Assembly: GCA_028873535.1 (NCBI GenBank)
Contig: JAGWIJ010000011.1
Location: 1 to 45,019, forward strand
Origin: Pseudomonadota bacterium
Lineage (GTDB): Bacteria > Pseudomonadota > Gammaproteobacteria > Burkholderiales > Ferrovaceae
DNA: 45,019 nt
Direction: 5' to 3'
Of this stretch, positions 23,583-36,840 are shown piece after piece (the first letter of the stretch is position 1; every line of letters starts with the position of its first letter). Under the pieces are notes generated by a model. The model had not been told where the DNA came from, did no database searches, and saw nothing but the letters and a program-made list of their open reading frames with translations. The translations under genes and the position numbers were made by a program.

Positions 23583-24386
23583 TCAGAACCAGCCGAGTTG
23601 CGCGGCCAGCATGCGCAGCGCGATCGCGCCCAGCACCAGCGCAAAGGTGCGCCGCAGCGTCTGCACCGGCAGCCGGTGCGCGGTACGTGCGCCCAAGGGC
23701 ACCGCGAAGAAGCTGCTGAGCGTGACGCCGGCAAACGCCGGCAGGTAGACATAGCCCAGGCTGCCGGCCGGCAGGCCGGGCACCGACCAGCCATTGATGG
23801 CGTAGCCCAGGGTGCCTGCCAGCGCAATGGGGAAGCCCAAAGCCGCCGACGTGCCGATCGCCTCGTGCATGCCGATGCTGCACCAGAGCAGGAAACTGAC
23901 GGTGAGCGAGGCGCCGCCGATGCCGACCAGGCTCGAGAAGCCGCCGATCAGCGCGCCCACCGCAGCAAGCAGCCACGCGCCGGGCGCGCGCACATGGGGC
24001 TGGGGCTGCACCGGCCGCCACAGGCCCTGGGCGACAAAGAGCAGGAACAGCAGGAACAGCCACTTGAGCGGCGCAGCCGGCAAGGCCGCCGCCAGGAAGG
24101 TGCCCGCCAGACTGCCGGTCAGGATCGCCGGCGCCATGCCGCGCACCATCGCAAGATGGACCGCCTGATGGCGATGGTGGGCGCGCATGCTGACCAGGCT
24201 GCTGACCAGGATGCAGGCCAGCGAGGTACCGAGCGCCATGTGCATGGCGTGACGCGCCGGGAATCCCTCCGCCTCGGCGGCCAGCAGGAAGGCCGGCACC
24301 AGGATGGCGCCGCCGCCGATGCCCAGCAGGCCGGCCAGGAAACCGGTGACGATGCCGATCGGCAGGTACAGCCAGAGCAGCGCCAG
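23583..24386 (-). CDS. TauE/SafE-family membrane permease, probable CTG start
   Basis: TauE/SafE proteins are multi-pass inner-membrane carriers linked to export or uptake of sulfur-containing or organic anions; the substrate here is unknown. The 267-residue reading shows about eight hydrophobic segments and the repeated family motif, GLLGIGGGAILVPAF near the N-terminus and SSLVGIGGASLTVSF in the second half. No ATG, GTG or TTG opens the full frame. After the EVE stop codon the frame runs TGA-AGT-CTG, and AGGAGG lies eight bases before that CTG. The next usable start, GTG at 24299, would delete the first helix and the GIGGG motif. I therefore place the start at the CTG at 24386. Confidence 0.85.
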   Translation of the reverse strand: MALLWLYLPIGIVTGFLAGLLGIGGGAILVPAFLLAAEAEGFPARHAMHMALGTSLACILVSSLVSMRAHHRHQAVHLAMVRGMAPAILTGSLAGTFLAAALPAAPLKWLFLLFLLFVAQGLWRPVQPQPHVRAPGAWLLAAVGALIGGFSSLVGIGGASLTVSFLLWCSIGMHEAIGTSAALGFPIALAGTLGYAINGWSVPGLPAGSLGYVYLPAFAGVTLSSFFAVPLGARTAHRLPVQTLRRTFALVLGAIALRMLAAQLGWF

Positions 24387-24389
24387 ACT

Positions 24390-24854
24390 TCAGCCCTCCT
24401 GCAGCAGGCGCTGGATCACCCGCCATTCGGCGGCACTCACGGGCGTGATCGACAGGCGGTTGCCGCGCGCCAGCAGGCGCATTTCCTGCAGATCCGGATG
24501 CGCCCGCAGTTCCGCCAGCGACAGCAGGCGCGTCTTGTGAACCAGACGCACATCGACCTGGAACCAGCGCGGCAGCTCCCGGCTGGCCTTGGGATCGTGG
24601 TAGCGGCCGCCCGGCTCGAACTGGGTGGGATCCGGATAGGGCGGGCTGGCCACCTCGGCGATGCCGGCCACGCCAGGCTCGGCGCAGCTCGAGTGGTAGA
24701 ACAGCACGCCGTCGCCGGGACGCATCTGGTCGCGCATGAAGTTGCGCGCCTGATAGTTGCGCACGCCGTACCAGCCCACAGTGGCAGCGGGCATGGCGGC
24801 GAGGTCGTCGACGCTGACGTCGCCGGGTTCGGATTTCATCAGCCAGTAGGCCAT
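24390..24854 (-). CDS. EVE-domain protein
   Basis: EVE domains are PUA-like folds thought to recognise modified bases in RNA or DNA. The 154-residue protein is a single domain: MAYWLMKSEPGDVSVDDL at the start, WYGVRNYQARNFMRDQM, FYHSSCAEPGVAGIAEV and the C-terminal RLSITPVSAAEW. I chose the ATG at 24854; in-frame codons upstream fall in the 6S RNA gene. Its position after zapA and 6S RNA fits other betaproteobacteria (from memory). Its last codons contain the AGGAGG used by the downstream TauE/SafE gene. Its cellular role is not established. Confidence 0.92.
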   Translation of the reverse strand: MAYWLMKSEPGDVSVDDLAAMPAATVGWYGVRNYQARNFMRDQMRPGDGVLFYHSSCAEPGVAGIAEVASPPYPDPTQFEPGGRYHDPKASRELPRWFQVDVRLVHKTRLLSLAELRAHPDLQEMRLLARGNRLSITPVSAAEWRVIQRLLQEG

Positions 24855-24874: not shown

Positions 24875-25062
24875 GGGGTCCCCCGACGGCACTGCCCAGG
24901 TTCGCATCTTGAACCCATACCTTAATAGGTGGGCGCCGGCCGGCCGCCTCAGGTACGTCCGCGTGGGACGCGCACACTGGCGGCCTGTGGGCAAGCACCC
25001 GGGGTCAGATGATTATCGGTTCAAAGAATCTTGAACCTGGGCAAACGCCGCAGGGGACGAAA
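24875..25062 (-). ncRNA. ssrS: 6S RNA
   Basis: 6S RNA binds the sigma-70 RNA polymerase holoenzyme by mimicking an open promoter and lowers transcription in stationary phase. The minus-strand transcript would be about 185 bases, the usual size. Its ends pair over a long distance: GTCCCC (25058-25053) with GGGGAC (24883-24878), then TGCCCAGGTTC with GAACCTGGGCA, leaving an interrupted central region and a GC-rich terminal arm. It lies directly downstream of zapA, the conserved proteobacterial location. Ends are approximate. On each side of the centre a local hairpin can also form (GGTTCAA/TTGAACC at 25018-25037, GGTTC/GAACC at 24899-24915 on the plus strand). Confidence 0.82.
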
Positions 25063-34730: not shown

Positions 34731-34807
34731 AACCCGTGCCTGGATGGCGCGACGCAACATCGACGGTGCTTGCCGGCGCTGCGTGATTGCAGTAGCGTCC
34801 TGGCATG

Positions 34808-36840
<2,033 letters not shown>

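Follow-up and report, generated by a model that had tools for sequence, protein, structure and literature searches.

A probable CTG start codon in a TauE/SafE permease gene adjoining an EVE-domain gene in a Ferrovaceae contig

Initiation at CUG is established in bacteria, though weak: according to the available part of PMC11497404, CUG makes up 0.024% of bacterial initiation codons, and in a study quoted there its output was 0.86% of that of AUG. We assume that the published rate rests on annotation that mostly cannot call CTG. Among the bacterial genes with CUG starts named in the accessible part of PMC5960689 are E. coli ano, plasmid repA and Deinococcus deserti rpsL. Switches between initiation codons were counted by Belinky et al. 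2017 (PMC5622118), whose text, in the part at hand, gives 2 AUG-to-CUG switches in 61,358, 1 GUG-to-CUG in 5,080 and 1 UUG-to-CUG in 2,468. The same part states that stronger Shine-Dalgarno (SD) sequences accompany weaker starts, and that no significant association was found when SD changes were combined with start switches. Re-initiation by a ribosome that has just terminated works across gaps of a few nucleotides and falls off sharply as they widen: in three E. coli gene pairs a gap of 2 nt lowered it by 5, 20 and 70% (PMC10666635, in the portion available). Among the papers listed in our literature search for TauE, SafE and start codons none looked related, as judged by title and beginning of the abstract, and those listed in the search for the CUG initiation codon were, judged likewise, viral or eukaryotic work.

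The locus described here lies in a stretch of 45,019 nucleotides from a Ferrovaceae genome, called the window below. In it a TauE/SafE permease gene that lacks a canonical start for its conserved N-terminus follows an EVE-domain gene.

Anatomy of the EVE-TauE junction

The elements of the junction are the following, G002, G003 and G004 being relatives of the same genus:

24390..24854, minus strand: gene of an EVE-domain protein (PF01878), 154 aa plus stop, starting at ATG 24854
24395..24400, minus strand: AGGAGG, Shine-Dalgarno-like, within the last EVE codons CAG GAG GGC, spacer of 8 nt
24390..24392, minus strand: TGA, stop of the EVE gene, aligned with the TauE start codon of G002, G003 and G004
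24387..24389, minus strand: AGT codon between the EVE TGA and the CTG
24384..24386, minus strand: CTG, proposed start codon of the TauE/SafE permease, near-cognate, in-frame, with a well placed SD
24297..24299, minus strand: GTG, first canonical codon of the TauE frame, residue 30 counted from the CTG
23583..24386, minus strand: TauE/SafE permease coding sequence (PF01925), CTG to stop, 267 aa, 70-71% identical to the four same-genus orthologues

An earlier note on this DNA had described a full-length TauE frame without ATG, GTG or TTG, an AGGAGG (24400-24395) eight bases before a CTG (24386-24384), and a single codon between the EVE stop and this CTG (TGA-AGT-CTG). Each of these observations was confirmed on the minus strand. 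The TauE frame is bounded upstream by the EVE TGA and contains no canonical codon until GTG 24299. No canonical start retains the conserved TauE N-terminus, and the CTG is well positioned for re-initiation: 8 nt separate it from the AGGAGG, which ends two bases 5' of the TGA, and the gap from the EVE stop is 3 nt. The CTG sits 21 codons before the GxGGG motif (codon -21).

The protein read from the CTG matches PF01925 over profile positions 2-237 of 237 (E 2.2e-48, 165.5 bits for a cut-off of 32.6), a full-length match that places it in the TauE/SafE family, and the upstream gene matches the EVE profile PF01878 at E 3.6e-51. A structure model was built with AlphaFold2 from 5 sequences (mean pLDDT 79.9) and numbered from the AGT codon that precedes the CTG (residue 1). 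In this numbering the predicted helix 1 spans residues 2-22, helix 2 spans residues 27-40, and GTG 24299 is residue 31. On the model, a protein started at this GTG would lack helix 1, the GIGGG turn and the beginning of helix 2, which bears out the claim that it would cost the protein its first membrane helix and GIGGG motif. A gene caller restricted to ATG, GTG and TTG would accordingly return a 238-aa TauE without helix 1. No solved structure related to TauE by sequence was found at E up to 1.

Initiation at a different near-cognate codon, such as CTG 24380 or a more internal ATC, is very unlikely: several in-frame CTG and ATC codons do follow, but CTG 24380 is 14 nt from the AGGAGG and the ATCs fall within predicted helix 1. 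Neither did we find unusual openness of the mRNA at the CTG start, which folds about as strongly as its shuffles (z 0.00 and 0.89). Relaxed initiator decoding was rejected, the one initiator-type tRNA found in the window's genome having the usual GGG/CCC anticodon stem. A search for 16S gave no match in this genome; the same search matched in 9 of 14 control genomes.

Two RNA elements were detected elsewhere in the window. A 6S RNA (24876-25059, minus strand, RF00013, 64.2 bits) lies between the EVE gene and a short ORF (25382-25071) which, by gene order, may be zapA. A TPP riboswitch (RF00059, 68.9 bits) is found at 34801-34894 on the plus strand.

Same-genus junctions and the loss of the old start

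The genus comprises five genomes, that of the window (G000) and G001 to G004, and EVE adjoins TauE in all five. The TauE start overlaps the EVE stop as GTGA in G001 and G002; it is an ATG within TGATG in G003, with a TTG immediately before it, and an ATG directly after TAA in G004. Stop and start therefore overlap or touch in 4/4 relatives, compared with a distance of +3 nt in the window. An overlap or a gap of a few nucleotides being the mark of such pairs, the same-genus junctions are, judged by this layout, of the termination-reinitiation type. In the four relatives, the 75 nt inspected at each junction contain no AGGAGG.

With codons numbered from the first G of GxGGG, the TauE start falls at -22 in G001 and at -23 in G002, G003 and G004; the window has its EVE TGA at -23 and its CTG at -21. 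CTG serves as TauE start in none of the four (0/4), all of which have GTG or ATG one or two codons upstream; their codon aligned with the window CTG is TTC in G002, G003 and G004 and ACG in G001, that is Phe three times and Thr once. Since the relatives start one or two codons upstream and the aligned codon is internal in them, a simple ATG-to-CTG change at 24386 was rejected. The earlier note had offered two readings, a real non-canonical start or a recent ATG-to-CTG change, and had proposed aligning the junction in close relatives to see whether ATG or CTG is present: ATG or GTG is there, upstream, and none stands at the codon aligned with the CTG. The second reading is thus not supported, and the first, a real CTG start, is the best supported.

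The start positions of the relatives and their aligned Phe and Thr residues indicate that the ancestral TauE start probably lay one or two codons further upstream and disappeared in the window's lineage, apparently together with a small insertion or deletion at the junction. We infer the route of this loss from the relatives' junctions: from the overlapping junctions of G001 and G002, a base difference and a length difference are needed to reach the window state, whereas from the TGATG junction a two-base loss would be enough.

These alignments also bear on read-through of the EVE stop, by which low-level TGA suppression would produce an EVE-TauE fusion. EVE and TauE share a frame in the window, with the TGA as sole stop between them, but such a shared register is expected one time in three, the two frames differ in G001, G002 and G003, and in G004, where they agree, the ATG follows the TAA. 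We regard read-through as barely credible.

The loss of the start could be recent and the permease gene on its way out. The gene would then be silent, or would give a truncated, defective product from GTG 24299, with the CTG unused. We consider this unlikely. The species is represented by one genome, a small junction change accounts for the start loss, and a nearby CTG is unsurprising in a leucine-rich stretch where this codon is frequent. On the other side, the frame runs uninterrupted through 267 codons, at 70-71% identity to all four same-genus orthologues, 24 of the 30 codons ahead of GTG 24299 encode the same residue as in G002, and the AGGAGG is correctly spaced for CTG 24386, although none of these three points dates the loss. 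Over codons -20 to +7 the window differs from G002 by 15 synonymous and 4 nonsynonymous codon differences, and from G001 by 6 and 6.

Frequency of missing starts and of CTG in the genome and the family

To judge how exceptional the locus is, we drew samples of 0.83 Mb from the window's genome and 1.09 Mb from the sister genome G002. A first comparison of 174 pairs gave 19 flags in G000 and 13 in G002, swamped by shadow frames, and was replaced by one using a GC3 filter. Sampled G000 genes with a homologue in sampled G002 numbered 212, from which 11 were dropped for having no upstream stop in the contig, leaving 201 tested. Aligned sequence ahead of the first canonical start was flagged in 9 of these 201, and 2 of the 9 were judged real from codon-position composition and reading: the TauE gene and prfB (L081:5672-6733, minus strand; TIGR00020, 510 bits). 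The latter has no canonical start in frame for its conserved N-terminus, presumably as expected from its known programmed frameshift. In the reverse comparison 12 of 209 G002 genes were flagged and none was judged a real missing start, ten on composition alone; L048 and L096, flagged with coding-like third positions, were rejected, having no Pfam or NCBIfam match and lying antisense to frames with coding-like sequence. Missing starts are exceptional in this sample, and there is no sign of a frameshift-ridden assembly. A general loss of starts in the window's genome was rejected, with no excess among the 201 genes.

An assembly or base-calling error, the true genome having a normal TauE start, is in our view quite improbable. 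The window is one of the 193 contigs of a fragmented genome, probably a MAG, and one wrong base in the CTG would suffice. Against this, the window differs from the overlapping junctions of its nearest relatives in length as well as in bases, the 201 sampled genes show no general excess of missing starts, and the CTG found in six genomes of two other genera (see below) shows the state to be natural, which leaves room for a local error.

In the same sample AGGAGG has a frequency of 2.6e-4 per coding position, which gives about 0.0018 for finding it 4-10 nt ahead of any one codon. It occurs within 16 nt of the start in 1 of 174 sampled starts, and AGGAG or GGAGG in 11 of 174, the starts being roughly assigned as the canonical codon closest to the alignment start. 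The arrangement AGGAGG-N4-10-CTG near a stop was present at 2 of 201 gene ends, the window EVE end among them. The AGGAGG is modest evidence for the CTG start, as it was noticed post hoc and several in-frame CTGs were available.

We then surveyed 163 distinct TauE N-termini or junctions, window included, of the same order save perhaps L034 and L035, two loci from a named collection. They are part of the matches found, one search alone having matched in 219 of 300 genomes; genera and families are designated by numbers (g109, g67, f11, f23), not names. Under a first rule covering codons -33 to -16, a canonical codon was present in 115 of 117, the window and L189, which lies within L248, being without. 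Once the clustering of starts was apparent, the rule was narrowed to -26 to -19. Only this narrower rule reveals the g67 cases, since they have a TTG at -18, and L250 had satisfied the first rule only through a GTG at -33. With the narrower range, 152 of 163 N-termini have a canonical codon, at -21 in 83 of the 152, where the codon nearest -21 was counted, which favours that position. The 11 others are the window, three from g109, three from g67, three with an ATG slightly further out at -27 to -29 (L259, L269 and L304), and one that looks frame-shifted, with an out-of-frame ATG just before a T run (L293, the second TauE match of G371).

CTG occupies the start position in 7 of the 163, in three lineages: the window, g109 and g67. 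The expectation at 0.024% is about 0.04 CUG starts in 163 genes. All three g109 species (family f11; L248, L249 and L250) have the CTG, followed by GAY CAN TGG, and in the other f11 genera read an ATG, GTG or TTG stands at the TauE start or close to it. For g67 (family f23) we read four of the 12 matching genomes: three species have CTG (L228, L232 and L237), and in the fourth, L197, the same codon, -25, is GTG. Aligned without gaps, the g67 species agree with one another at 13-18 of 36 nt ahead of the CTG and at 53-56 of 60 nt beyond it; in g109 the figures are 14-24 of 36 and 48-53 of 60, and L249 and L250, unlike L248, share about 12 nt (about four codons) immediately ahead of the CTG. Conservation thus begins at or just before the CTG in both genera, and these codons look like true starts. 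Variation in the six codons separating the CTG from the next canonical codon of g67, the TTG at -18, falls on 4 of 6 third positions and on 1 of the 12 remaining ones (Fisher p 0.022), a coding-like pattern, and in two of the three g67 CTG species the frame contains a stop five codons ahead of the CTG. In all three g109 species an in-frame ATG or GTG occurs 11-15 codons upstream, in mostly unconserved sequence, from which TauE may have an extended N-terminus. By eye, no clear SD was seen in the g67 sequences or in two of the three g109 sequences. Some distant relatives appear to have adopted CTG independently.

As a control, 0 of 39 EVE starts lacked a canonical codon, a wider range of 12 codons being used. 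The TauE family also tends towards weak starts: GTG or TTG was counted in 47 of the 152, some of which may be chance codons near -21, versus a non-AUG codon in 1 of 39 EVE starts. Set against these small EVE and genome controls, the excess of CTG in TauE is suggestive, not proven; the window was pre-selected, so that the survey contributed two further CTG lineages, one of them found after the rule was narrowed. We put forward only tentatively, as a doubtful possibility, that CUG is a recurrent and maintained start of a TauE/SafE subfamily often linked to EVE: it would have arisen three times or more in the order, and genera would have kept it because little of the permease is needed. The sharing of CTG starts by several species of a genus would suggest that the published CUG frequency is an underestimate.

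Proposed initiation and comparison with known systems

The explanation we favour, with a probability of about two in three, combines initiation at CTG 24386-24384 after loss of the old junction, coupling to EVE and weak output. The ancestral GTG or ATG would have overlapped or touched the EVE stop and been reached by ribosomes just finishing EVE. A small junction change, including a change in length, would have eliminated it, so that the EVE TGA now stands where it was. Ribosomes that terminate at this TGA would be held by the AGGAGG two bases upstream of the stop and would re-initiate 3 nt past it with fMet-tRNA, an SD with an 8-nt spacer being able to place the CTG in the P site. The expected outcome is a full-length permease made weakly; it is plausible, given the published CUG output, that the CUG start limits its expression. 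Natural junctions at which a start has been lost beside a stop would offer a clean test of the trade-off between start codon, SD and re-initiation.

Compared with other TauE/SafE permeases of PF01925, the window protein is full-length, has the GIGGG and GIGGA stretches and gives an all-helical model; the start codon is the only difference. The window TauE probably uses a true CUG start and would then be an addition to the known rare CUG-initiated genes. With those listed in the accessible part of PMC5960689 it shares the proposed CTG initiation, with its first-position mismatch to the fMet anticodon. It differs from them in that the evidence is comparative only, and in its conserved permease product, its recurrence in the family and its termination-reinitiation position.

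Like the SD-compensated start switches of PMC5622118, as the part at hand describes them, the window pairs a weak start with a strong SD, but its start would have moved one or two codons downstream, with no switch at the same codon. In g67, GTG in one species and CTG in the others at a single codon are consistent with a point switch, and no clear SD accompanies them. Such compensation is not a rule, because g67 and two g109 sequences have no clear SD and because that part of PMC5622118 gives no significant association. A parallel to the inferred event is the frame-shifted cI gene rescued by a non-natural start (PMC6397469, in the part available), where likewise the loss of one base near the start forces the use of a non-canonical codon, with weak, working output. 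That case is a laboratory circuit using the codon ACA, whereas the window junction is natural and its codon is CTG.
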